Assembly: GCA_021773565.1 (NCBI GenBank) | Contig: JAJFJZ010000009.1 | Span: 124,001 to 188,000, forward strand | DNA: 64,000 bases | Reading direction: 5' to 3' | DNA from: Gammaproteobacteria bacterium | GTDB lineage: Bacteria; Pseudomonadota; Gammaproteobacteria; Pseudomonadales; Azotimanducaceae | Shown: positions 17,918 through 33,771 of the stretch, piece by piece | Layout: each line of letters begins with the position of its first letter | How positions within the stretch are numbered: position 1 is the stretch's first letter | Notes under the pieces: model-generated | Seen by the model: only the letters and a program-made list of their open reading frames with translations | Told to the model about the DNA's origin: nothing | Database searches by the model: none | Translations under genes and position numbers: made by a program

Positions 17918-19291
17918 TCAGCGCATTCTGTGTAACGCGTGCCAGGTGGAGAATTTAAGACCGACCACGGTGACGGTGCCATAAATAATCATTCCCCCAG
18001 CCGTACAGGCATAGATGAAGTTCAAACCAAGGTCGAATACGTAAACTCCAAGTGCCGACACGAACACCGCAACAAGTACTCTGCAAAAAGTGGCAATTAT
18101 TGGCCAAAGCACTTTTCCAGCCCCCTGGGATGCAAAATACAGTGATAAGCCAAGGCCGAGAAATGCGAACGTCGGACCGGCAATGCGCAGGTATAGAGAT
18201 GCAGCCTGCACGGTAACCGGATCACTGGTAAAGAGGTCAACCCAGAGCCAGGGAAATATAGAAAGTACGATACCGACCACTCCAGAGACGAGTGCAGCTA
18301 CCCCACCACCCAGCCAACTAATACTTTCTGCACGCTTGATATTTCCAGCTCCAATATTGATGCCGACCATGGAGGTCATGGAAACTCCTACACCAAATAC
18401 CAGGGGAATAATGAGAAATTCTACGCGGGACCCAATGCCATAACCAGCCAGGATTGCTTCGCCGAATCCGCTAACGAGGAAATTTATAGAGGTAACAGAG
18501 AAAACCACCAAAAACGGTGACAGCGAGGCAAGTAGGCCTACCGAATAAATAGAACGGAATAAGTCATGACTCAGCTTCAGCCGGTTTAGATGTAGACGGA
18601 CGGGTGCGTGGTGCAGTTTGTATAAAAGCACCAGAGTCATAAGAAAAGATGTTGTAATTACCGATACCGCTGCTCCCGTGATCCCCATACTTGGCACACC
18701 GAACCACCCCAGTATTAAAGTGCCCGAGAGCGGGATTTGGATACATGCTGCGGCTACCATCAGTGTTGCGGGCAGCAGCATATTGCCCATGCTTCTAAAA
18801 ATGGAGCTCAACAATGCCATTAACCAGATGGTGATACAGCCGCAGAATAGTATTGTCGCATAGGAATTTGCCTGCTCCAGCACCTGCGTACTTGCCCCAA
18901 AAACCGAGAGTAAACTTCGCCCAAACAGTAGATAAAAACACATGAATACCAGGCCGGCGGCTACTGCAATTGCGATAGCATGCCAGATTAGGCGCTCGGC
19001 AGTTTCGATATGGCCCCTACCAATCGCCTGGGCAACCGCACCCGTCACTGAACCACCAATCGATCCGTTAGCCAGCATTTGCATTAGCATCAAACCCGGG
19101 AAAACCAGGGCCATTGCTGCCAGTGAAGATGTTCCTAACTGCCCTACATACCAGACTTCGGTCATGCTGACACTGGCTTGCACGACAAAAGCCATGGCAT
19201 TGGGAGTTGCCATGCGCAATAGCACGGGCAGGGCGGAGGCACTTAGAATATTCCGCGTTCGTGCATCGGGTTGTGTAGTCGCTTCAGCCAT
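17918..19291 (-). CDS. MATE family efflux transporter
   Basis: 457 residues from ATG 19291. A longer in-frame start at 19390 would overlap the upstream gene by over 90 bases and adds sequence unlike the family; the ATG at 19291 is 7 bases past the upstream stop and is preceded by AGGG. Twelve hydrophobic helices in two similar halves are visible, with MATE-like SVSMTEVWYVGQLG (helix 1-2) and LVFGVGVSMTSMVGINIGAG (helix 7-8). MATE proteins export drugs or metabolites in exchange for Na+ or H+ in the inner membrane. It is the last gene of the MarR-controlled unit with the RND-LolA fusion and the DUF1302-like barrel. Confidence 0.9.
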   Translation of the reverse strand: MAEATTQPDARTRNILSASALPVLLRMATPNAMAFVVQASVSMTEVWYVGQLGTSSLAAMALVFPGLMLMQMLANGSIGGSVTGAVAQAIGRGHIETAERLIWHAIAIAVAAGLVFMCFYLLFGRSLLSVFGASTQVLEQANSYATILFCGCITIWLMALLSSIFRSMGNMLLPATLMVAAACIQIPLSGTLILGWFGVPSMGITGAAVSVITTSFLMTLVLLYKLHHAPVRLHLNRLKLSHDLFRSIYSVGLLASLSPFLVVFSVTSINFLVSGFGEAILAGYGIGSRVEFLIIPLVFGVGVSMTSMVGINIGAGNIKRAESISWLGGGVAALVSGVVGIVLSIFPWLWVDLFTSDPVTVQAASLYLRIAGPTFAFLGLGLSLYFASQGAGKVLWPIIATFCRVLVAVFVSALGVYVFDLGLNFIYACTAGGMIIYGTVTVVGLKFSTWHALHRMR

Positions 19292-19298
19292 AGTTACC

Positions 19299-20582
19299 CT
19301 AGATACCAAGCTGTAGTTTGAAACCGATCTGGTCGCGGCTACCAAACTGGCCAAACAATTCGTCAGCCCCTCCGCTAAAGATGTCTCCATACACGCTAAT
19401 TTGTAACGTCGATGTTAACTCGTAAGTTGCACCTATCCGCAATAAATTATCGTGCTTATTGAGATGGTAAAGCCACAATATTTGAGTGCTCAGGCTTTCA
19501 TTCAGGAAGTTGCGTCGCAAAAGTAGTGTGATGTTTGTATCTGTTTTATCTCGCGTGTAACGTGCCTCATCGAGTAACCGGGACTGGAATACTTGTACAC
19601 TGACAAAGGTATCTGTCAAACCCGACCAGTCCACTCCCAGCGCATAAGCCAGCTCTGAACTTTTGTAGATGCCTTGGGTGTTCGGAGAGTCAAGCACATT
19701 CACATATTTGTCGGTATTGATTACGAACTCGCTTCGCAGTACAAATTCCCCAAACGCATTGGAGGCGCTGGCACCAAATGTGTGTGTGCGTTCGTATTTT
19801 GGCATTAGTGTTATTCCGCTGGGCTGAAGAAGTGCATGAACAACGGGAAAGTCATCATAGTGGTACAAATAGTTCAGGGTGATATCCCATCCTGCTCTGA
19901 AAAGCGTAAAACGCAGCCCTACATCACTATCCTTGATTAATCTGTTGGGGCGGTCTACCGGATTGACCTGTATAGGCGCTCCTGGAGGCAAGGAGGCAAA
20001 TGGTGCAGTTATCTCATAAGTCGACCCTGGCCCTGGCAAGCTGTGCATTGATGTATCCGGTATCCACAATAACTGCAAGTCGCCCTCGTCAAAAAACATT
20101 TCGAAATTTACCATCCAGGTGGGGATTCGGGAGTTATCGAAATCCTCGAGAATAAATTCGCGAAAATCCTGTGGGTTGATTAGATCCAATAGTTTAAGCC
20201 CGTCTGTCTGTCCCCAGACAATCTGTTGCTTTCCAAGCCTAAGGTGCGCCTTGCGCAGATCAATATCCAGGTACAGCTCACGCAGTTCCAGTTCCAGGGA
20301 GTTGCTAATGTTCAAGCGTCTGGAAAGGGGAGCGAGGGAGGGTTGCTGAAACTGTCCCGGCTCGAGCGAATCCGGTCCGATGAACTGGGCACGCACAATC
20401 GATGTAAAGGATACATTTGCACCAAAATTCTGTGCATTTTCTATCAGGGCGGTAAATTTGGATTTTTGATACCCATCTTTCGACCAGCTGTGGTCTGTAG
20501 CGATGATACCGGTTGTCTCAAGCTCGCCTGCATGCAATATGCCGGTGGAAAACAGAAATACCAGGGTGAAAAAGCCTCTCAC
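19299..20582 (-). CDS. DUF1302-like outer-membrane beta-barrel protein
   Basis: 427 residues from GTG 20582, which has GGAG five bases upstream and gives a clean signal peptide, MRGFFTLVFLFSTGILHA. An in-frame ATG at 20597 would add an acidic MDGDT and has no ribosome binding site. The mature protein is built of alternating aromatic strands, including LELELRELYLDIDLRKAHLR and KQQIVWGQTDGLKLLDLINP; the GKQxxxWG...D.INP pattern is a hallmark I associate with DUF1302/DUF1302-like barrels. Such genes are often next to RND/MMPL exporters and LolA-like proteins, as here (13 bases after the fusion gene). It probably forms an outer-membrane exit or lipid acceptor for the RND system (inference). Confidence 0.8.
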   Translation of the reverse strand: MRGFFTLVFLFSTGILHAGELETTGIIATDHSWSKDGYQKSKFTALIENAQNFGANVSFTSIVRAQFIGPDSLEPGQFQQPSLAPLSRRLNISNSLELELRELYLDIDLRKAHLRLGKQQIVWGQTDGLKLLDLINPQDFREFILEDFDNSRIPTWMVNFEMFFDEGDLQLLWIPDTSMHSLPGPGSTYEITAPFASLPPGAPIQVNPVDRPNRLIKDSDVGLRFTLFRAGWDITLNYLYHYDDFPVVHALLQPSGITLMPKYERTHTFGASASNAFGEFVLRSEFVINTDKYVNVLDSPNTQGIYKSSELAYALGVDWSGLTDTFVSVQVFQSRLLDEARYTRDKTDTNITLLLRRNFLNESLSTQILWLYHLNKHDNLLRIGATYELTSTLQISVYGDIFSGGADELFGQFGSRDQIGFKLQLGI

Positions 20583-20610
20583 CGTGTCTCCATCCATACA
20601 TTGTTGCCCA

Positions 20611-23600
20611 TTAAAGACCCCGCTTTAGTTGGCGTGTTTCAAACCAGCTGTCATTAACGGGCGTCAGGTAATCGATTTCCGAGAAGGAGAAGCGTGTTTT
20701 ATGTCCTGTTTTCAGGTTCTCCGCGTAAATTTCATGGCTGGTCCATATACCGTCCACTTGTCGAATATCTTTGTTCAAAACAAACTTGAGGGGGTTGCCC
20801 TTGATGTCCCAAAATTCACTCTTGCGGGCCATCCAGATATTAGGATCGATGCGGGATACCACGCGACCGTAACCAAGTTCGCGCGCTACCTTATCTGAAA
20901 CGGGCGTGGCTTCAAGTACGAAGCACTTTACACCATCAATAACCTCATCCCCGGTAATTGCGTAAGTGTAATCGGCGAGATTGGGCTTGTTTTCGTTTTT
21001 TATGTCTTCGTAACTCAAGTCTGTGCCCAGAAAATAGTCGCCCCGGTCCGAGGAGGATATACGGCGTATTTTTCTGGCAGCAGGCAGGTAAAGCCATTGA
21101 TCGTCATCCAAGTTAGTATCTTTGTAGTCATAGGTAAGGAAACCGGTGTCTTTGACATTGGCTGGGCTGATGTAAAACAACACTGTGCGTTTGTCCTGCC
21201 CAAAATATTTTCGAAAGCCGCGAGTTTCCCTGATTCTGGTTTTTCCGCGTCGATCAATCAGTTCCATTTTTAAATTCCTGGATACATAAGCCCCATCATT
21301 TCGCGTAACTACGCGGGTCATAATTTCCAAAGCACTTAGGTCGTCTGCCTGCATCTGTTTGGACAGACCCGACAAACCAATACTTGCAAGAACCATTAGA
21401 CCTGCAACGGCGTTACCGGGTAGACCGTCAGACTTTTTTTGGCGATATATGAACCCGGGCTTAAGAAGAATTATTAAAGCGGGTAGTAGTGTTAGGCTGA
21501 ATATGAACGCTGTGCCTACTGACAGCGCAACTATGGCACCAAAGCGCATAAGGGGTACAACATCAGAAGAAATCAGCACTCCAAATCCACATGCTATGGC
21601 AAGCAAATTGAAAAACAACGCTCTGCCGGTAGAGGGGAACAGGCTGTGTATGAGCCGGCTTTCTTCTCCCTTGGTGTAACCTTCCTCGAACAGAGTGCGC
21701 GCCCTGTCGATGGTGTGAATTGCGAAGTCGACACCGAGACCTATGGCCACTGATGCAAACATTGAAGTGCCGATTCCGATATCTATACCAAACACAACCA
21801 TTACGGCATATACAAACAATATGGATATGGCGACTGGTGCCAGTGAGAGGAGACCCGCTACAACAGACCTGAATACCACACAGGCCATCAGGAGAACCAG
21901 ACCCAATGATACCAATACGCTGTTGAAGTGGCTTACTCCAACAGAATCTACCCATTCATAGGTGACCATGGCCCGACCGCTGAGTGTGGCCTTTAGACCC
22001 GGTTCGTTGAAAGTTTCTTCAATGTACAGATTCAAAGCAGCTATTACCGGTTTTATCTTGCGATAACTGGAATCTTTTATGCCCACTCGAATGTTGGCTT
22101 TTTGATAGTCGTAATCTACCTCTTCTTCAAAATCGGTAGGATCAGCTGAAGCCGTGTATAACAAAAACAACTGTGCTATCAAAAGTTCGTCATCCACAAG
22201 CCGGTATTCTTCAGGCTTACCTTCATTAAGAGAACGATTCATCTGCTTAAGATAGTCTACGATTGAGGTGGTTCCGCCAACGATTGCGTGGCGTTCTATT
22301 TCTGTTTGAAAGGCTTCCATTTTTTTCAGGTACTCAGGATTAAACAAACCCTCGACCTTGTCAGTTTCGATGACAATGTCGAATACGCTGGTTCCATCAA
22401 AGTGTTCGTTTATTATCTTGTCAGCCTGATAGACAGGTTCCTTTTTGTTAAATACGTCGATACGACGATCATCTACCTTGATGTTCATGGCTCCGAAAAT
22501 ACCTGCAAGTACGAGGCTCGCTGCCAGGTATACAATCAATCCGGGTTTTTTGATCACCATAGTACCCAGACGGGACATGAGGCGGCTGGCAAAGTCGTTG
22601 GCTTTGGTGCGCGCCACATAACTATTCGGTTTGGCTCTGAATAAACTCATGGCGGCGGGCAGAAACAACATTGAATAGGCCCAGGCAATTGCTACACCCA
22701 GCGCTGTGAATAGACCCATAAATTGCATGGGGGGTTGCACCGATGAAATATACATACCCATAAACCCCGCAATAGTAGTAAGGGAAGTGAGGGTAATAGG
22801 GCGCCACATCTCACACATGGCTTCTACGATGGCGTCATTGTTTTCTATATCAGGGTGTTTACCTAAGGATTCGTAGTAGGCAGTGAAGATGTGGATAGAA
22901 TCCGCGACAGCAATCCCAATCAGCACAACCGGCATTCCGTTGGTGATAACAAAGAATGACACGCCAGAAGCTGCCATTATGCCGACGGTTCCAACTACTG
23001 TTGCAACAACAATCAGATTTGGCAGAAGGGCACCAGCCAGGGTACGAAAAGCAAGAAACAGGATAATGGTGATGATTACTCCCGCGAGTGGATTCAGTTT
23101 CTGTGCATCACTATCGATATAGGTACCCATATAACCTGTGATTGAAGCTTCACCTGCTACATGAAGACTCACGCCATTTGGTAAGATTGTCTGGTTTGCC
23201 AGCTGGGTAACCGCTGCGTAGGTAGATTCAGATTCCTGTTCGTTTAATACTTCTGCGACAATAAGAGTTGCGCTGCCATCTCGGGCCACAAGGCTACCGA
23301 GATAGAGTGGAAAATCACCAACCGCCTCCCAAATTGCCTGAGCGGCTTCCTGGGTATCTGGATAATTTTCGTAGAACGGTTCTACGTTCATACCAAATTC
23401 ACGGCCTACGATGTTTTTTTCGGTTGCCAGACTAACAACCCGCTCGGGATCGATGTTTGGTAAGTCCTGCAATTTTAGAGTCAGGGTTTCCACGAGTTGC
23501 AGAGCATCGGGCGTGAACACTCCGTGTTCACCCTCCTGAAAAACTGCAATTACAATGGGATCAGCGAGGCCAAAAGTTTCTTTGACCTGTTCCCTGTATA

Positions 23601-23754
23601 CACGGGCGGGATTATCTTCTGGAATAAATGCGTCTGATGTAGTGTCTCGCGTCAGGGTTGGCAGGAAGCTGCCTGCTACTATGATTCCGCTGGTACCGGC
23701 TATCAAAAATAGTATGCGAAATTTTAAAACCTGCTGAAAAATAGTTTTAATCAT
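20611..23754 (-). CDS. RND/MMPL-family exporter fused to a LolA-like outer-membrane lipoprotein-sorting domain
   Basis: 1047 residues. Residues 1 to about 775 are an RND (MMPL-type) permease: one N-terminal helix, a periplasmic domain, five helices, and the same arrangement again, with the pairs GIAVADSIHIFTAYYESL and GLGVDFAIHTIDRARTLFEEG at the start of each helix-4 region. After the last RND helix comes a further hydrophobic stretch (about 781-797, VAGLMVLASIGLSGL). Then follows a 245-residue LolA-like/outer-membrane lipoprotein-sorting domain (about 803-1047), recognisable from MTRVVTRNDG, DQWLYLPAARKIRRISSS and FLGTDLSYEDI. The two parts are usually separate genes. The extra helix probably places the LolA-like part in the periplasm (inference). 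AAGGA precedes the ATG. A shared 14-bp site lies 23 bases upstream. Confidence 0.88.
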   Translation of the reverse strand: MIKTIFQQVLKFRILFLIAGTSGIIVAGSFLPTLTRDTTSDAFIPEDNPARVYREQVKETFGLADPIVIAVFQEGEHGVFTPDALQLVETLTLKLQDLPNIDPERVVSLATEKNIVGREFGMNVEPFYENYPDTQEAAQAIWEAVGDFPLYLGSLVARDGSATLIVAEVLNEQESESTYAAVTQLANQTILPNGVSLHVAGEASITGYMGTYIDSDAQKLNPLAGVIITIILFLAFRTLAGALLPNLIVVATVVGTVGIMAASGVSFFVITNGMPVVLIGIAVADSIHIFTAYYESLGKHPDIENNDAIVEAMCEMWRPITLTSLTTIAGFMGMYISSVQPPMQFMGLFTALGVAIAWAYSMLFLPAAMSLFRAKPNSYVARTKANDFASRLMSRLGTMVIKKPGLIVYLAASLVLAGIFGAMNIKVDDRRIDVFNKKEPVYQADKIINEHFDGTSVFDIVIETDKVEGLFNPEYLKKMEAFQTEIERHAIVGGTTSIVDYLKQMNRSLNEGKPEEYRLVDDELLIAQLFLLYTASADPTDFEEEVDYDYQKANIRVGIKDSSYRKIKPVIAALNLYIEETFNEPGLKATLSGRAMVTYEWVDSVGVSHFNSVLVSLGLVLLMACVVFRSVVAGLLSLAPVAISILFVYAVMVVFGIDIGIGTSMFASVAIGLGVDFAIHTIDRARTLFEEGYTKGEESRLIHSLFPSTGRALFFNLLAIACGFGVLISSDVVPLMRFGAIVALSVGTAFIFSLTLLPALIILLKPGFIYRQKKSDGLPGNAVAGLMVLASIGLSGLSKQMQADDLSALEIMTRVVTRNDGAYVSRNLKMELIDRRGKTRIRETRGFRKYFGQDKRTVLFYISPANVKDTGFLTYDYKDTNLDDDQWLYLPAARKIRRISSSDRGDYFLGTDLSYEDIKNENKPNLADYTYAITGDEVIDGVKCFVLEATPVSDKVARELGYGRVVSRIDPNIWMARKSEFWDIKGNPLKFVLNKDIRQVDGIWTSHEIYAENLKTGHKTRFSFSEIDYLTPVNDSWFETRQLKRGL

Positions 23755-23824: not shown

Positions 23825-24271
23825 TTAGATCCCGGGGTTCTGACGAATTTTCTCACGCAATTCGAGTAAATCGGCTTCTAGTGCATGCCACTGTTCTGCA
23901 CCAAAGGTTTCAAGAATGCGACTTTGTGCTTTGCGCCATAGTTTTCTGGCATCGGTAAATTTGGCTTTGCCTTCGCGAGTGAGGCTTATTTCCCGGGATC
24001 GCGCATCGCTCTCGGAAGTTCGTATAGAGATAAATCCTGCTTTTTCTAGTGGTTTTAAGTTGCGGGTGAGTGTGGTACGTTCCATATAGAGCACATCAGC
24101 CAGGTCTGATATTTTACTGGTTCCCAATTTGCCAAGATAACCCAAAATCGCGAACTGTGAGCGTTTTATGCCCGACGGGCGCATCTCCTCGCCATAAATA
24201 CGTGTTACAGCTCTTGCTGTTTGATGCAGATTATTGCTTACACAATGAGCTGGGTTTAGCAGGTCTTCCAT
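23825..24271 (-). CDS. MarR-family transcriptional regulator
   Basis: 148 residues, standard MarR length. The winged helix-turn-helix is clear: KRSQFAILGYLGKLG, then SKISDLADVLYMERTTLTRNLKPLEKAGFI and the wing with SESDARSREISLTREG. MarR proteins are dimeric repressors released by small, often aromatic or lipophilic ligands. The gene is the first in the order marR, RND-LolA, DUF1302-like, MATE, all on the minus strand. A 14-bp site in its own promoter is repeated in front of the RND gene, which points to self-regulation and control of the exporter. It therefore most likely senses the exported compound (inference). Confidence 0.93.
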   Translation of the reverse strand: MEDLLNPAHCVSNNLHQTARAVTRIYGEEMRPSGIKRSQFAILGYLGKLGTSKISDLADVLYMERTTLTRNLKPLEKAGFISIRTSESDARSREISLTREGKAKFTDARKLWRKAQSRILETFGAEQWHALEADLLELREKIRQNPGI

Positions 24272-24986: not shown

Positions 24987-25148
24987 TTCCGGGCAGACTT
25001 TTTTTGAGGGCATCCTGAACTCTGGAAAAAATAAAATCCCGTCTGTCGGAATGTCCTGAAGACTGTCCCTCGAACGTACCGGATTGTTTTGTAGCTCTGT
25101 GGGTATTAAGGTACGCCTTTCTTCGGCACCGTGGATGGAAAACACCAA

Positions 25149-27710
25149 ATGATCTTCAAGGCAAGCCTGCTAAATAAACCCTTCCTATTGACTCTGATTA
25201 TCCTGATATCCGGTTTTTTGTTTGCCGAAGAGAAGAAGGACGATGCAGAGAAGGAAGAAGAAAAACCCAAGACGATAGCCGAGCTTACCGAAGACAGCAC
25301 GCGTCTTGATGGGCTGTTCACGCTGTTTCAAAATGACAAGACAGGCAAAGTTCACTTGCTCGTAAGGGCAGATCAACTGGACAAGGAGTTTATTTATTTT
25401 GCCCACGCCTCAAACGGTGTAACAAACCAGGGGTATTCTCGTGGTAACTACCTTGATACCGGGGTGATCTCGTTTCGCCGCTATTTCGACCGGATAGAAA
25501 TAGTACGTAAAAATACCGCCTTCTATTTTGATCCTGAAAATGCACTTTCAAGGGCAGCAGATGCCAATATTTCCGAAGCCGTGCTGGCAGTTGAAAAGAT
25601 AGCAGCCGAAGACAAAAACACCGATGAAATGTTGGTTAGTATCGACAAGGTATTATTAAGTGAAGCATTGTTACAGGTAAAACCCTCCGCACATCCGGAT
25701 GCAGATCCCAAAAAGACTTTCACTTTGGGTACCTTGTCGGATGGAAAGAGCAAAATTACCGATATGCGCAGTTACCCGGAAAACACCGATATTGAAGTTG
25801 AATATGTCTATAGTAACGAAGCACCTGCAGTGCAGGCAGACAGCGATGTTACTGATTCGCGCAATGTGGCAATACGGGTTAGGCACTCCTTTTTATCTAT
25901 GCCCAAAAACGATTATCAGCCACGCAGGGATGATCCCCGGATCGGGTATTTTCGGGCAGAGTCCACAGACCTCACGTCCCTGGGGGTCGCGCCCTTCCGG
26001 GATTTTATTAAACGCTGGAACCTGGTGAAAAAAGACCCTGACCAGGCCCTCTCTGAACCCGTAGTGCCGATAACCTGGTGGATTGAAAATACCACTCCGC
26101 TTGAATTGCGAGAGCTGATTAAATCTGCAGCGCTAGCATGGAACCCGGCGTTTGAAAAAGCCGGGTTCAAGAATGCAGTGGTAGTAAAAATACAACCGGA
26201 CGATGCGGATTGGGATGCAGGAGATATTCGCTATAACGTTTTACGCTGGATTGCCTCTCCAAACCCCTTGTTCGGTGGATCCGGGCCAAGTTTTATGAAT
26301 CCACGCACTGGGGAGATTCTGGGCGCAGACATCATGTTGGAGTACAGCTTTTTGGGTGCAAATATACTGACTGAGAAAATGTTTGCACGGGAGCAAACAG
26401 TTCGACACTCTGGTCCAGGCACTTATTGTAATCTGGCTCAGGGTCTGCAAACCAATATGTTGTTTGGTATGGCTGCGGCGCGAAGCGCGGGTTATAGCGA
26501 AAAGCAAAAAGAGCAGTTGTTACACGACACGATGTATTACCTTATTTTGCATGAGATTGGCCACACACTGGGGCTGAACCATAATATGAAGGGCACGTAT
26601 TATTTAAGCACCGATGAGGCCTTTGATGCAGAGGTGGTTGCAGAACGCGGCCTGGCAGCTTCGATTATGGATTATCCCGCACTTAATTTTGCGCCACCCG
26701 GCGAACACCAGACTGACTTTTACCCAACCCGGGCCGGGCCCTACGATGAATGGGCTATTGAATACGGGTATTCAAGCGCAGTAGCTGATCCGCAAGCTGA
26801 AGAAAAACGCCTTACTGCAATTCTTCAACGCTCTACAGAACCCGCCCTGGCCTTTGGAAATGATGCTGACGACATGCGCAGTCCCGGAGTCGCAATCGAC
26901 CCCCGGGTTAATCTGTTTGACATGGCATCGGATACCATTAATTACGCCTCGCGCCGAATAGATCTGGTTAATAGTACCGTCAATAACCTTCCACAACACT
27001 ATCCGGATAATGGGGAGTCCTTTCAGGAAACCTATATCAGTTATCTTGTTTTGATGATCCAGATAAGAAGCGCGGCAACAGTTGTTTCGCGTTATGTAGG
27101 GGGCATATACCTGGATCGTGGCATGTCCGGGCAACAGGGAGCAGAGGCACCGTATACGCCAGTATCTCTCGAAGAGCAGCAGGCCGCCATGGCAGTATTA
27201 AAACGCCAGATTTTTGCGCCATCAGCTTTTGAAGCACCACAGGATTTGTATCGCCACCTTGCCCGCCAACGACGCGGGTTTAACTTTTTTGGGACAACCG
27301 AAGATCCAAAACTGCACGATTTGGTTCTCAGAATTCAAACGGACGTATTCGATCATTTGTTGCATCCTGTAGTGATGAAACGAATGAGCGATAGCCGCCT
27401 GTATGGGAATGAATATGATGTTGCACGCTTCGTTGCAGAGTTGAATGATGCAGTTTTTGCAGAGGATGCAAAAATGAATGTGAATACGCTGCGACAAAAC
27501 CTGCAGATGGAATATACAAATCGCCTGACGGCAATGATAGCGGGCGAAGGGAAAGCCAAGTACGATACGCCATCACAGAATATGGCTGTATATGCGCTTA
27601 ACGAAATACTTCAATTGCAACAGCGTCGACGCGGTGGAAATGTGGAGACCAGGGCGCACGCACAAAACTTGCAACGCGTTATTAATAAAGCGCTGGACAC
27701 CCATAGTTAG
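25149..27710 (+). CDS. Exported zinc-dependent metalloprotease (DUF5117-type, M10/gluzincin-like)
   Basis: 853 residues from ATG 25149 with GGA 8 bases upstream; an in-frame GTG at 25131 adds only six residues. A signal peptide (MIFKASLLNKPFLLTLIILI...FLFA) is followed by a charged, Lys/Glu-rich linker. HEIGHTLGLNHN begins at residue 468, a HExxHxxGxxH zinc site with the further Met-turn-like SIMDYPALN about 45 residues on; this is a metzincin-type arrangement. The domain before it contains PITWWIENTTP and NVLRWIASPNP, typical of the DUF5117/DUF4953 zinc protease family that I recognise. It acts in the periplasm or outside the cell on unknown proteins. The OMPLA gene follows after 12 bases. 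Confidence 0.85.
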   Translation: MIFKASLLNKPFLLTLIILISGFLFAEEKKDDAEKEEEKPKTIAELTEDSTRLDGLFTLFQNDKTGKVHLLVRADQLDKEFIYFAHASNGVTNQGYSRGNYLDTGVISFRRYFDRIEIVRKNTAFYFDPENALSRAADANISEAVLAVEKIAAEDKNTDEMLVSIDKVLLSEALLQVKPSAHPDADPKKTFTLGTLSDGKSKITDMRSYPENTDIEVEYVYSNEAPAVQADSDVTDSRNVAIRVRHSFLSMPKNDYQPRRDDPRIGYFRAESTDLTSLGVAPFRDFIKRWNLVKKDPDQALSEPVVPITWWIENTTPLELRELIKSAALAWNPAFEKAGFKNAVVVKIQPDDADWDAGDIRYNVLRWIASPNPLFGGSGPSFMNPRTGEILGADIMLEYSFLGANILTEKMFAREQTVRHSGPGTYCNLAQGLQTNMLFGMAAARSAGYSEKQKEQLLHDTMYYLILHEIGHTLGLNHNMKGTYYLSTDEAFDAEVVAERGLAASIMDYPALNFAPPGEHQTDFYPTRAGPYDEWAIEYGYSSAVADPQAEEKRLTAILQRSTEPALAFGNDADDMRSPGVAIDPRVNLFDMASDTINYASRRIDLVNSTVNNLPQHYPDNGESFQETYISYLVLMIQIRSAATVVSRYVGGIYLDRGMSGQQGAEAPYTPVSLEEQQAAMAVLKRQIFAPSAFEAPQDLYRHLARQRRGFNFFGTTEDPKLHDLVLRIQTDVFDHLLHPVVMKRMSDSRLYGNEYDVARFVAELNDAVFAEDAKMNVNTLRQNLQMEYTNRLTAMIAGEGKAKYDTPSQNMAVYALNEILQLQQRRRGGNVETRAHAQNLQRVINKALDTHS

Positions 27711-27722
27711 GGTCAGGAAACG

Positions 27723-28754
27723 GTGTATTTCCCAATAAACCAGAGGATCCTGCTCTATGCCATTTTGTTTTTGTCATTTAACGAGGGCGTGCATGCAGAA
27801 ACCGCATCCGAGCTGGAAGAACAATCCATCGAGGTAGATCTGGAACAGGAAAAGTTCAGGGCTTGTATGTTTGAACAGGTAAGTTCTGCAAAAAATCGTC
27901 AAACAATGGGGGAGTTGCGAGCGCTCTGCAAGAATACGGGAACAGGTTTAATCGAATCCCGCCGTACGCTTGAGAGTGCGGTGGGTGGTAATCCCTTTGC
28001 GATTCAACCATATCGTCCGAATTACATCCTGCCTTTCACATACTCCAATGTTAACGAAAACCCTTATCAGAACGTTTTGCAGGGTGACAGCTATGATAAT
28101 GTGGAAGCCAAGTTTCAGATTTCATTCAAGTACAAATTTGCCAGCAACGTTTTGGTGAATGATCTTGATTTGCAGGTAGCGTTTACGACGGTTAGCTGGT
28201 GGCAATCATACAATTACGAAATTTCTGCGCCGTTCAGGGAAACCAACTACGAACCCGAATTAATCCTGAATTATGATCGCTCCTGGTCACTATTTGGATT
28301 ACCCGTCAAGAACACATTTTTGTCCCTGACACATGAGTCAAATGGCAGGGGGGGTGAGCTTTCCCGTAGCTGGAATCGTGTTATTGGCGGATTATCTTTT
28401 GACCAGGGAAATTTCATCTGGGGTGCATCTGCGTGGTGGCGTATTCCGGAAAGTAAAAAGGATGGTCCAGGCGAGGCACGGGGTGATGACAATCCGGACA
28501 TTCTGGCATTTCTGGGCTATGGGGAGCTGAATGCAGTTTGGAAATTGCCACGAAATCACAATCTGGAGATTAAGGTACGTAATAATTTACGCAGGAACAA
28601 CAAGGGTGCGCTTGAGTTGGGATGGTCGTTTCCCCTAAGTAAACGTCTGCGCGGGTTTGTGCAATACTTTAATGGCTACGGCGATGGACTGATTTATTAC
28701 AATGAGTCCGTTGAGCGTATCGGAATTGGGGTGAAACTTACAGACTGGTTGTAG
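27723..28754 (+). CDS. pldA: Outer-membrane phospholipase A (OMPLA)
   Basis: 343 residues from a GTG start with AGGA 5-6 bases upstream. A signal peptide ends GVHA. The mature N-terminus carries an extra ~60-residue segment with CMFEQ and ALCKN cysteines before the barrel. The catalytic residues are visible as THESNGRGGELSRSWN: His204, Ser206 and Asn218, with the same 2- and 12-residue spacing as the E. coli His142/Ser144/Asn156 triad. OMPLA is a calcium-dependent dimeric barrel that removes mislocalised phospholipids from the outer leaflet. It ends in a barrel-type tail, VKLTDWL. It is probably cotranscribed with the upstream metalloprotease. Confidence 0.92.
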   Translation: MYFPINQRILLYAILFLSFNEGVHAETASELEEQSIEVDLEQEKFRACMFEQVSSAKNRQTMGELRALCKNTGTGLIESRRTLESAVGGNPFAIQPYRPNYILPFTYSNVNENPYQNVLQGDSYDNVEAKFQISFKYKFASNVLVNDLDLQVAFTTVSWWQSYNYEISAPFRETNYEPELILNYDRSWSLFGLPVKNTFLSLTHESNGRGGELSRSWNRVIGGLSFDQGNFIWGASAWWRIPESKKDGPGEARGDDNPDILAFLGYGELNAVWKLPRNHNLEIKVRNNLRRNNKGALELGWSFPLSKRLRGFVQYFNGYGDGLIYYNESVERIGIGVKLTDWL

Positions 28755-30987: not shown

Positions 30988-32232
30988 CTAAAGCGTCAAA
31001 GATAACGCCAGCCAGAATTTACGCACATTTGACAGGCCATTTTTTCCATCAAAATCAGCGTAGTAGAGATCACCCCTGAGGTTTTTGCTGAATTTGTAGC
31101 CTGCACTCAGGTCAAATTCGTCACCCAGGTCTGAGCTGCTATCGCGTGCTTCGAAATGGTGGTAGCGGGCATTAAACACCCAGGCATCCCTGTTGTATTG
31201 AAATTTCACATATTTATCATCCAGGCCTGCATTCGGGGTCGTCAAAAACACATCCGCCCAGCCATTAAATGCGTGCAGCGTCGCCAGTGGAGTGCGAAAG
31301 GCTTCGTTTAGAAGTGAATTATCATCACCTTCCAGTACTTCCCATCCCAGACTGATATTTGTTGTATCCCTGGAGAGCGTGCCCTGCAGGTTCCAGTAAT
31401 TGGCCGAATAATTCACAGGATTATTTGCAGCGTCACTCTGAACGGCATATTCCATAACATAGGAAATAGTTGTTTGGGGGTTTGCCTGAGCCTCTCCCGT
31501 TAACCTTACGCCCCAGGTGTCTGTTGAAAAGGCAGGCGAATCTGAATTGTCTATCCCGTAGTAGTAAGCCGCCAACTTTCCCTTCTCCGAAATTTTTCCG
31601 GAAACATTTAGCAGGTGTGTTCCGCTCTGGTCATGTTTACCCGCTGGTACGTCCCGTCCAAAGATACGGTTCACGTGATCCACATATGCATACACGCCGG
31701 TGAATTTTTCACCGGTATATTGCAGGCTGGCAGCGTCATAGGTTTGTTCGTTCTGGCGCCAGCCCACACCGCCGATAAATCTCTGGTTATCCAGGTTTAT
31801 GCGTTGGCGACCGAAACGCGTTCGTACTTTTGTTGAGGGATTAATATCGACGTACAGTTGGTTCAATTCGGTGCCTGCAGGATCGGCCACCACCGGGTAC
31901 CGGGTTCTATTGGGTGTGTTTCCAGCGCCTTCGTTGTAGTGTTTTTTTCCAATGGCATGAATATCATCAAGTTCAAGTAAAAAATTAATCATTTTATAGG
32001 TGCCCGACTTCAGCGTGAGGCGAGAACGCAAGGTTGAAGCCTGCGCGTCTTCGGTAAAATTTTGCTGGTCTACCGATTCATATCGATATCGAAAGGACAA
32101 TGTAGCATCACCATCTTCCAGTAGTGCCGAAAGATCTTCTTCTGCAACTACGCTTACGGAAAAAGCCATTGCAGAAAGCAGGCTGATAACTGCAATATGT
32201 CCTTGTATGTTGATCGTACTGGCTATCCTCAT
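30988..32232 (-). CDS. Outer-membrane porin, alginate-export (AlgE-like) family
   Basis: 414 residues with AGAGGCGAC before the ATG and a signal peptide ending SVSVVA. The mature protein is all alternating beta strands with aromatic girdle residues. It contains FRYRYESVDQQNF and RFGRQRINLDNQRFIGGVGWRQNEQTYD, a pattern I associate with the alginate_exp barrel family (GRQ.I...NQRFIG...WRQ). The strand-rich C-terminal end WLALSLTL is a usual barrel ending. Such porins pass small solutes or sugar acids through the outer membrane. It lies 32 bases after hemN and 42 bases before the hydroxylase gene, all on the minus strand, so one transcript is possible. Confidence 0.83.
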   Translation of the reverse strand: MRIASTINIQGHIAVISLLSAMAFSVSVVAEEDLSALLEDGDATLSFRYRYESVDQQNFTEDAQASTLRSRLTLKSGTYKMINFLLELDDIHAIGKKHYNEGAGNTPNRTRYPVVADPAGTELNQLYVDINPSTKVRTRFGRQRINLDNQRFIGGVGWRQNEQTYDAASLQYTGEKFTGVYAYVDHVNRIFGRDVPAGKHDQSGTHLLNVSGKISEKGKLAAYYYGIDNSDSPAFSTDTWGVRLTGEAQANPQTTISYVMEYAVQSDAANNPVNYSANYWNLQGTLSRDTTNISLGWEVLEGDDNSLLNEAFRTPLATLHAFNGWADVFLTTPNAGLDDKYVKFQYNRDAWVFNARYHHFEARDSSSDLGDEFDLSAGYKFSKNLRGDLYYADFDGKNGLSNVRKFWLALSLTL

Positions 32233-32264: not shown

Positions 32265-33647
32265 TCAGATAGTTTGGGAAAATTGCGATTTCGCAGGTTT
32301 ACCCGGAAGGTACACATCAAATACTGCGGCAATGTTGCGCAGTAAAAGCCGGCCAGTCTCGGTAATGCTGATGCCCTCGTCACTGAGTTTTAGAAGTCCG
32401 TTTTCAGCGAATGCCTTTAGCTGGGTCAACTCTTCCTCGTAGTGCTCTGTGAAGTTAATATCATTACTTTCTGAAAACTCCGTGTAGTTCAGTTTCAGAT
32501 TGCACATCAGGCTGGTAAGTACATTTCGGGTGAGCGAATCATCCGGAGAACAGACCAGGCCTTTGGCAACCGGTAAATTGGAGTGATCCAATGCCGTGTA
32601 GTAAGCATCCAGGGTTTTTTCGTTTTGACTGTATGAACCATTTATGTCGCTGATAGCACTCACTCCAAGGCCAATCAGTTCACACTGACGGTGGGTGGTA
32701 TAACCCTGAAAATTCCGATGCATGGTTCCAGATTGTTGGGCAGCAAAAAGTTTGTCGTCGGGTTTTGCAAAATGATCAAGACCCACATAGCTGTAACCGG
32801 CATCCAGCAGATAACGAATTGAGAAGGACAGTAAGTTCAATTTTTCGGAAGGTGAGGGAAGCTGTGCGTCCACAATTTGACGCTGTGTTTTAAACAGGTG
32901 CGGCATGTGCGCATAGTTAAAAAGTGATATCCGATCCGGATCTATTTGACAAACTACCTCCAGAGTTTTTTCAAAATGACGCACAGACTGCAGAGGCAGG
33001 CCGTACATTAAATCTACGCTTATGGATTCAAAGCCGGATGATCGGGCTGCGTTCACGATATCGGTGGTTTCCCCGGTAGATTGCAGACGGTTGATAGCAA
33101 GCTGAACCTGGGGGTCAAAATCCTGAATACCCAGGCTTAACCGATTTAGACCCAGTGAAGCCAGGTGTGCGATTCTTGCAGGATCCACCGTTCTGGGGTC
33201 AATTTCTATTGAAAAGTCCCGCTCAGGACTGGTGGACAAATTAAAGTGGTCGGTCAGGCTCTGCATGATGGTTTCTAATTGCCTGTCGGACATGTAGGTG
33301 GGCGTACCACCACCAAAATGTAGCTGTTCGACTGGTTGATTGCCGTCTATGAGATTGCTTACCAGCGCGATTTCCTTTTGCAGGTAGGTGAGGTAAGTCT
33401 CTGCCTTTTTTTTGTTTGCAGTCACAATCTTGTTGCATGCGCAGTAATAACAAATGGTGTTGCAAAAGGGCAGGTGCAGGTAGAGGGACAAGTCCTGTTG
33501 GGGTGTGATGCTCGCCAACGCATCGACCTGATGTCCGGGTTTATATGCCCCGGAAAAATTATTGGCGGTTGGATAGGACGTATATCTGGGGCCAGAGCCC
33601 GCATAGCGCTGCACCAGATCTGTAATCGTTTCAGGTAACAAGCTCAC
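32265..33647 (-). CDS. hemN: Oxygen-independent coproporphyrinogen III oxidase
   Basis: 460 residues from GTG 33647, which has GGAAG five bases upstream. A longer in-frame start at 33746 would run almost into the divergent gene. With the GTG start the radical SAM cysteines are at 62, 66, 69 and 71 (CNTICYYCAC), matching the positions I recall for E. coli HemN. SGPRYTSYPT, HFGGGTPTYM and FNYAHMPHLFKTQR are HemN-specific. The enzyme converts coproporphyrinogen III to protoporphyrinogen IX without oxygen, using a [4Fe-4S] cluster and SAM. I looked for an FNR-type box upstream and saw none. It may be transcribed together with the porin, hydroxylase and sulfotransferase. Confidence 0.95.
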   Translation of the reverse strand: MSLLPETITDLVQRYAGSGPRYTSYPTANNFSGAYKPGHQVDALASITPQQDLSLYLHLPFCNTICYYCACNKIVTANKKKAETYLTYLQKEIALVSNLIDGNQPVEQLHFGGGTPTYMSDRQLETIMQSLTDHFNLSTSPERDFSIEIDPRTVDPARIAHLASLGLNRLSLGIQDFDPQVQLAINRLQSTGETTDIVNAARSSGFESISVDLMYGLPLQSVRHFEKTLEVVCQIDPDRISLFNYAHMPHLFKTQRQIVDAQLPSPSEKLNLLSFSIRYLLDAGYSYVGLDHFAKPDDKLFAAQQSGTMHRNFQGYTTHRQCELIGLGVSAISDINGSYSQNEKTLDAYYTALDHSNLPVAKGLVCSPDDSLTRNVLTSLMCNLKLNYTEFSESNDINFTEHYEEELTQLKAFAENGLLKLSDEGISITETGRLLLRNIAAVFDVYLPGKPAKSQFSQTI

Positions 33648-33771
33648 TTTTCTTCCCGAATGTACTAATACTTCTATTGTTTTGTCTGTCGGCTGCAATG
33701 GATATAAGGGGTTTCCATAGTATTGGGCACGGGCCGCCCTTATCATCTATGTGTCGGAGCAGGAGAATTTT

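Follow-up and report, generated by a model that had tools for sequence, protein, structure and literature searches.

Does a carrier domain that is encoded in one open reading frame (ORF) with its pump stay attached to that pump? The question is raised by a stretch of 64,000 nucleotides from a Gammaproteobacteria bacterium (assembly GCA_021773565.1, contig JAJFJZ010000009.1, positions 124,001 to 188,000 of the forward strand; this whole stretch is called the window below), in which a single ORF on the minus strand (20611-23754) encodes a protein of 1047 amino acids, composed of an RND/MMPL transporter, an internal signal-like segment, and a LolA-like domain. A first-pass annotation of this DNA had proposed that the former signal peptide of the LolA-like protein stays uncut as a 13th helix and tethers the domain to the pump as a built-in carrier. 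The evidence presented here favors another reading: for the family as a whole, the joint is, with a probability of roughly 0.6, a retained signal peptide at which signal peptidase I would cut the polyprotein and release a free carrier; for the window's own protein, the chances of this are about even. It was read from sequence or from structure prediction that the genes are fused, that the fusion and the pattern of cleavage site residues (A-x-A) are conserved, how the genes are ordered, how the domains are predicted to fold, and that internal translation start signals are rare.

Pump and carrier in one reading frame

The ORF begins with ATG and runs through 1047 codons with zero internal stops. 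Residues 1-770 (21445-23754, minus strand) constitute the RND/MMPL part (PF03176), modeled with transmembrane (TM) helices and two periplasmic loops; residues 771-803 (21346-21444, minus strand) form the junction, read here as a retained internal signal peptide; and residues 804-1047 (20614-21345, minus strand) form the LolA-like carrier domain (PF17131, with a match to the solved structure 9tp6). In a Pfam scan, MMPL was found in two stretches (135.1 bits; curated cut-off 20.5) and LolA_like at residues 854-1045 (E 4e-52; 177 bits, curated cut-off 30), together with a weak match to DUF1329. Thus, one intact frame does span both domains, as had been claimed; the coordinates given at the time hold, and the strand, then missing, is minus. 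The score of the RND part against the NCBIfam model of the HAE3 subfamily (TIGR00921) was 236.5 bits, below the cut-off of 351.9, which suggests a relative of this subfamily and not a formal member of that model. By sequence, the first part of the protein matches MmpL5, MmpL4, and HpnN, and its C-terminal 240 residues hit three LolA-like proteins of known structure (9tp6 from Porphyromonas gingivalis, the best at E 5e-40, 4z48, and 3bk5). D285 and D676, presumably the aspartates of the proton relay, are invariant in 10 aligned fusions.

Signal peptide features of the joint

In the RND topology, the chain should be cytoplasmic after helix 12, and a carrier that follows can enter the periplasm only by way of a translocation signal. 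That the LolA-like domain is periplasmic, as annotated before and as it would have to be in order to work, is suggested by this topology (the count of 12 helices was taken from the model and from family knowledge). The hydropathy profile has a hydrophobic segment at ∼777-798, after the RND helices, and the junction can be read as a signal peptide, with a basic n-region (RQKKSD), a hydrophobic stretch (∼782-797), and then SKQMQA, after which (behind A803) lies a candidate site for signal peptidase I. Upon inspection, a hydrophobic stretch was present at the joint of all 50 non-redundant fusions (27 of 77 had been dropped as redundant at 70% identity), despite large variation in its length and sequence.

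A strict A-x-A motif was found at 36 of these 50 joints, compared with 27 of 296 other helix ends leading from the inside to the outside (19 of the 27 at TM1; TM4 and TM10 were left out of these controls) and 15 of 198 at four helix ends of the opposite direction. When the joints were shuffled 200 times, 21.2 passed on average (sd 3.0, maximum 30). A looser rule for positions -3 and -1 was satisfied by 48 of 50 joints versus 84 of 296 other inside-to-outside helix ends. The strict motif is also present in signal peptides of separate carriers (standalone, 16 of 23, after 7 of 30 loci without the search motif had been dropped; split from the pump, 5 of 12). A simpler rule passed 47 of 50 joints as strict; it was rejected since sites within the hydrophobic stretch were counted as well, which made it too lenient.

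The strongest evidence is that residues at the putative site are kept selectively by position. With the site defined in one protein and then looked up in its closest relative, positions -1 and -3 were identical in 61 of 88 cases and positions -4, -2, and +1 in 41 of 130 (p 5e-8, an optimistic value given that each pair has a direction and some are reciprocal; three duplicates, of L057, L070, and L128, were dropped). Position by position, identity was 32/44 at -1, 29/44 at -3, 9/42 at -2, 17/45 at -4, and 15/43 at +1. No such pattern was seen at the ends of TM1, TM6, and TM12 (30, 11, and 7 pairs). In signal peptidase I, the S1 and S3 pockets hold residues -1 and -3, and residues -2, -4, and -5 are exposed (PMC9360617), so the pattern appears to be the one these pockets predict. 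The ratio of changes at third to other codon positions was 1.57 for the joint, compared with 3.58 for the RND and 3.36 for the LolA part (24 pairs). This points to weak constraint on a fast-evolving joint and to strong coding constraint on the parts that flank it.

The carrier could, in principle, also be made from an internal translation start within the fused ORF, the fusion being a minor or accidental product. In 14 of 41 fusions (9 of the 50 were left out for lack of tabulated DNA), an in-frame ATG does precede the hydrophobic core or lie right at its beginning, and the window fusion has one at residue 787. However, a Shine-Dalgarno (SD)-like motif combined with ATG or GTG in frame was found in only 1 of the 41, as opposed to 6 of 12 split carriers (the remaining 6, all from Bacteroidota, had no SD-like motif), and a start at ATG787 would leave the signal peptide with no basic n-region ahead of its hydrophobic core. 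The stop codon of the RND gene, furthermore, is missing through whole clades of the tree described below. We therefore regard internal initiation as improbable.

Anchor or cleavage site

A model of the fused protein was built with AlphaFold2 from an alignment of 40 sequences (A3, in which some rows start upstream of the true start codon); it had a mean predicted local distance difference test score (pLDDT) of 84 and a predicted template modeling score of 0.73, with well-folded RND and LolA parts. In Foldseek searches, the pump part was closest to MmpL5 and MmpL4 (TMt ∼0.8), with NPC1-type transporters ranked lower, which suggests an MmpL-like fold of membrane helices and two periplasmic loops. 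The carrier part matched LolA3 (9tp6; TMt 0.92, rmsd 1.9 Å, 33% identity). For the junction, where the first-pass annotation had called for a structure prediction of residues 760-830, no extra helix was built: residues 773-805 were modeled as coil with a pLDDT below 50, although this low confidence may only reflect a gappy alignment. Thus, of the proposed additional helix, the hydrophobic segment is supported, as is its apparent descent from a signal peptide; the helix itself is not supported by the model.

What, then, of a permanent tether? The segment is hydrophobic enough to form a helix, the window's own -3/-1 site is poor, and a physical link would explain why the fusion is conserved. Against this stand the frequent A-x-A in the family and the selective retention of -1 and -3, for which an anchor has no need, together with the lack of a modeled helix. 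The tether is thus not supported by the data and appears doubtful, and the combination of signal peptidase features, rare internal starts, and a joint modeled without a helix fits cleavage better than anchoring.

Several observations nevertheless count against cleavage. The strict rule was failed by 14 of the 50 fusions (12 of which pass the loose one), it was passed by 19 of 48 proteins at TM1, a true helix end, and ∼21 of 50 shuffled joints passed it as well, which is due to the region being rich in alanine. The hydropathy of the joint (1.97) lies within the range of true helices (1.44-2.42), so that an anchor is possible. A weight matrix trained by expectation maximization on the 23 standalone carriers separated joints from control helices moderately (area under the curve, 0.80), and it gave split signal peptides a lower mean score (2.1) than joints (3.7), which makes it a poor yardstick; being over-fitted, it was replaced by the plain -3/-1 rule with controls. 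The window's own site (QMQA/DD, with Met at -3, or GLS/GLSK, the slash marking the cut) passes the loose rule and fails the strict one. Sites of near relatives read VEA/A (G002) and VQA/S (L119). Because its site is weak, cleavage of the window's own protein is less certain than that of the family. The limits given above for the helix-end controls, the p-value, and the model confidence pull in the same direction; the evidence on the substrate (see below) is expression in one relative; and no observed cleavage was found in the literature.

Conservation and history of the fusion

A third explanation, a sequencing or assembly error that fused two genes, or a decaying locus, was addressed by comparison with other genomes. 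According to ORF maps, the unbroken fusion occurs in the window's own genome and in at least 8 of 57 related ones (G002, G005, G006, G010 with two copies, G013, G016, G042, and G049), which gives at least 9 of 58 in total, these counts being lower bounds as up to 13 candidates were scored per genome. These other fusions are 35-65% identical to that of the window; in G002, at 65% overall, the frame is open through the joint. In one of them (L042:6788-10087, genome G042), the linker contains a repeated TGKE-type motif, as though in-frame repetition had lengthened the joint. The distribution is patchy, since no fusion was seen in the one further genome that belongs to the genus (best E 5e-21). 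Among the matches listed for 369 genomes of the class, unbroken full-length fusions were present in at least the window's own genome, G394, and G144 (two candidates scored per genome, threshold 1e-30). In 299 genomes of the phylum, nearly all LolA_like matches listed were in frames shorter than 500 amino acids; frames above 800 were listed for the own genome, G570, and G535, and these lengths may span stops.

A wider scan with one genome per species yielded 80 loci: 13 are split, and in the other 67 an open frame runs through the joint (contig ends truncate two of these, L119 and L135). The set comprises the best 80 out of 219 confirmed stretches, which biases the proportion of fusions toward the window's type; three genomes are common to this set and the 58. 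Judged by title, most are from Gammaproteobacteria and some from Alphaproteobacteria, with single metagenome-assembled genomes labeled SAR324 and Cloacimonadota. Hosts include Marinobacter, Thalassolituus, Oleiphilus, Aestuariicella, and Alcanivoracaceae, several of which are hydrocarbon users. In the 12 split loci inspected, the stop is followed by a carrier ORF with its own signal peptide-like start, so that RND and LolA-like proteins do occur elsewhere as separate neighboring genes, as anticipated.

The first-pass annotation had named a stop plus a new start at the joint of relatives as the mark of a sequencing error. Such a stop does separate the two parts in the 13 split loci, and it might speak for an error or decay. 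The frame is, however, open in eight other related genomes, among them G002, and in the 67 loci (with the three genomes shared), and both parts appear to be under strong coding constraint. At the level of the family, the open frame in so many genomes refutes a sequencing error, and for the window, error or decay is highly improbable. Given the conservation of the fused form across many genomes, the 13 stops reflect repeated fusion and fission instead.

A tree of 76 RND domains (51 fused and 25 split, including three identical pairs from two collections; L119 was too short) is consistent with this. On this quick tree, some long branches of which are unsure, the fused state changed at least seven times, five of them forced by well-supported branches, compared with a mean of 21 for shuffles. 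Whole clades lack the RND stop codon, and a split gene of Pelobacter is placed inside the mainly fused part. Interconversion of this kind is expected if the mature products of both forms are alike, and it argues against a permanent tether.

The gene unit

The gene for a DUF1302 outer-membrane barrel (19299-20597, minus strand) starts 13 nt past the stop codon of the fusion; its product matches PF06980 with 64.3 bits (cut-off 23.2; E 1.5e-17). Directly upstream of the fusion, a MarR-family regulator is encoded (23825-24271, minus strand). A barrel related to that of the window is directly next to the fusion or split pair, on the same strand, in 75 of 76 loci with downstream sequence (the exception ends at a contig edge), which bears out the earlier remark that a DUF1302-like barrel follows, and all 23 barrels scanned, including the window's, match DUF1302. 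The barrel, modeled with a pLDDT of 85, is only loosely similar to general porins (TMq ∼0.45). In 52 of 80 loci, 9 of the 13 split ones among them, one of the three nearest upstream genes is a homologue from the MarR cluster, linked by BLAST (once on the other strand). Given these frequencies, marR, RND-LolA, and DUF1302 are the usual unit, to which hydrolase or glutathione S-transferase genes are added in some loci.

Further genes of the window surround the unit. In its listed form, a MATE transporter ORF (17918-19390, minus strand) shares 92 nt with the end of the DUF1302 gene, which has the same orientation; translation may in fact begin further inside this ORF, and co-transcription with the unit is possible. 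An outer-membrane phospholipase A1 is encoded ∼4 kb upstream of the fusion (27723-28754, plus strand; PF02253, E 5e-92), adjoined by a gene for a Met-zincin protease (25131-27710). An Alginate_exp-type barrel gene (30988-32232) adjoins a radical SAM gene (32265-33746), both on the minus strand, and a gene for a pyridoxal-dependent decarboxylase lies at 33751 on the strand opposite to this pair.

Known systems and likely function

A protein of this make-up has been in print since 2018, so the fusion is less surprising than had been thought: TOL_3187 of Thalassolituus oleivorans MIL-1 was 42-fold upregulated on the n-C28 alkane and is followed by a porin gene; TOL_3188 was seen only on the n-C28 alkane, and TOL_3187 was proposed to export the porin (PMC6304351). 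In the parts of the literature available, TOL_3187 was the only such protein found, and its kinship with the window fusion is suggested by like domain make-up. A locus from Thalassolituus alkanivorans (L097) has the Pfam make-up of the window fusion plus a DUF1302 gene.

Unfused sets of similar composition are also known. AmeABCD of Castellaniella defragrans likewise comprises an HAE3-type RND pump, a DUF1302 barrel, and a periplasmic protein of the LolA superfamily, but the genes are separate, DUF1329 takes the place of PF17131, and there is an extra protein, AmeC (PMC6394551). In Pseudomonas putida, PP_0765, PP_0766, PP_2018, and PP_2019 are needed for growth on Tween 20; DUF1302 and DUF1329 proteins are functionally tied to a periplasmic protein and an annotated multidrug efflux pump, although encoded separately at two loci and with a complex that is predicted only (PMC10866462). 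ApeL, ApeM, and ApeN of aryl polyene clusters combine an RND protein with a LolA-like chaperone in a proposed dedicated lipid transport to the outer membrane, yet again from separate genes, with a LolB-like protein instead of the barrel and aryl polyene as cargo (PMC8253772). LolA3 of P. gingivalis shares the fold of the C-terminal domain (PDB 9TP6; PMC13103446), but it is a chain of its own (273 residues) and comes with no pump. Alkane uptake by AupAB relies on a different, FadL-type system (PMC5989066). The partner to which the LolA-like domain is joined in the fusion is an RND pump, and none of the evidence gathered here links it to the LolCDE lipoprotein pathway.

The window's own genome (G000, 4.2 Mb) contains two matches to wax ester synthase/diacylglycerol acyltransferase (WS/DGAT), 4 to the desaturase family, and 19 to P450s, some of the latter being pieces of one gene; among 10 of these proteins (the 4 desaturase-family members and 6 P450s), none was named an alkane hydroxylase by NCBIfam at E up to 1e-20. 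By its P450 and WS/DGAT matches, the organism is perhaps lipid- or hydrocarbon-oriented. Separate RND relatives and separate LolA-like genes are also present. One of these loci (L055:4539-7048, contig C12) has an unfused LolA-like gene (283 amino acids) with, directly behind it, an ORF of barrel size (553 amino acids); no RND match was listed for the contig, and the two are possibly a separate pair.

Together, the induction of TOL_3187, the roles of the related unfused sets, and the WS/DGAT matches make it likely, by analogy, that the system moves long-chain hydrophobic lipids across the envelope, be it inward or outward. Efflux of toxic hydrophobic compounds such as solvents or terpenes, which could be combined with a cut as well as with an uncut joint, is an unlikely alternative in our judgment. 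MarR regulators are typical of efflux pumps and would fit it. So would the lowered monoterpene tolerance upon deletion of ameABCD (PMC6394551), but the response of TOL_3187 to the n-C28 alkane (PMC6304351) and the requirement of the P. putida genes on Tween 20 (PMC10866462) suggest lipid handling.

In the favored reading, the fusion would be the portion of a lipid-trafficking unit that belongs to the inner membrane and the periplasm. The two former genes are translated as one chain, in which the carrier's former signal peptide, located after RND helix 12, would re-enter the Sec translocon and bring the LolA-like domain into the periplasm. Signal peptidase I would then probably cut after A-x-A in most family members. 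Pump and carrier would be made one-to-one and end as separate proteins, that is, as products of a polyprotein with no permanent tether. At the inner membrane, a long-chain hydrophobic lipid (alkane-, fatty acid-, or wax ester-like) would be moved by the RND part at the expense of the proton gradient; the LolA-like domain would ferry this lipid across the periplasm, with the DUF1302 barrel as the outer-membrane partner that hands it over or receives it. Of this scheme, we infer the cleavage, the substrate, the direction of transport, the transcription as an operon, and the proton coupling. A precedent is the cytochrome b-c1 precursor FbcH of Bradyrhizobium, a single chain that comprises a polytopic membrane protein and a periplasmic protein and is cleaved at a signal peptide between them; FbcH, however, is a respiratory enzyme, and the window fusion a transporter.

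Implications

The fusion itself is of a known and widespread type. It is an even bet that the larger picture holds, namely, that a widespread family of RND-LolA polyproteins, with many marine lipid- or hydrocarbon-using hosts, has its "helix 13" removed by signal peptidase I and that the freed, dedicated carrier passes long-chain lipids to the DUF1302 barrel or takes them from it. RND pump, LolA-like carrier, and DUF1302 barrel recur in many Gram-negative bacteria, and for this trio, no proven cargo or path was found; as the natural fusion shows, the carrier goes with its pump in a fixed ratio. With split and fused homologues at ∼50% identity, the choice between tether and free carrier is directly testable. 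If the joint is cut, annotations as single membrane proteins would be wrong about the mature products, and the notion that fusion means tether would mislead for genes joined through a signal peptide. To our knowledge, this would be the first transporter family to be matured like the cytochrome b-c1 precursor.

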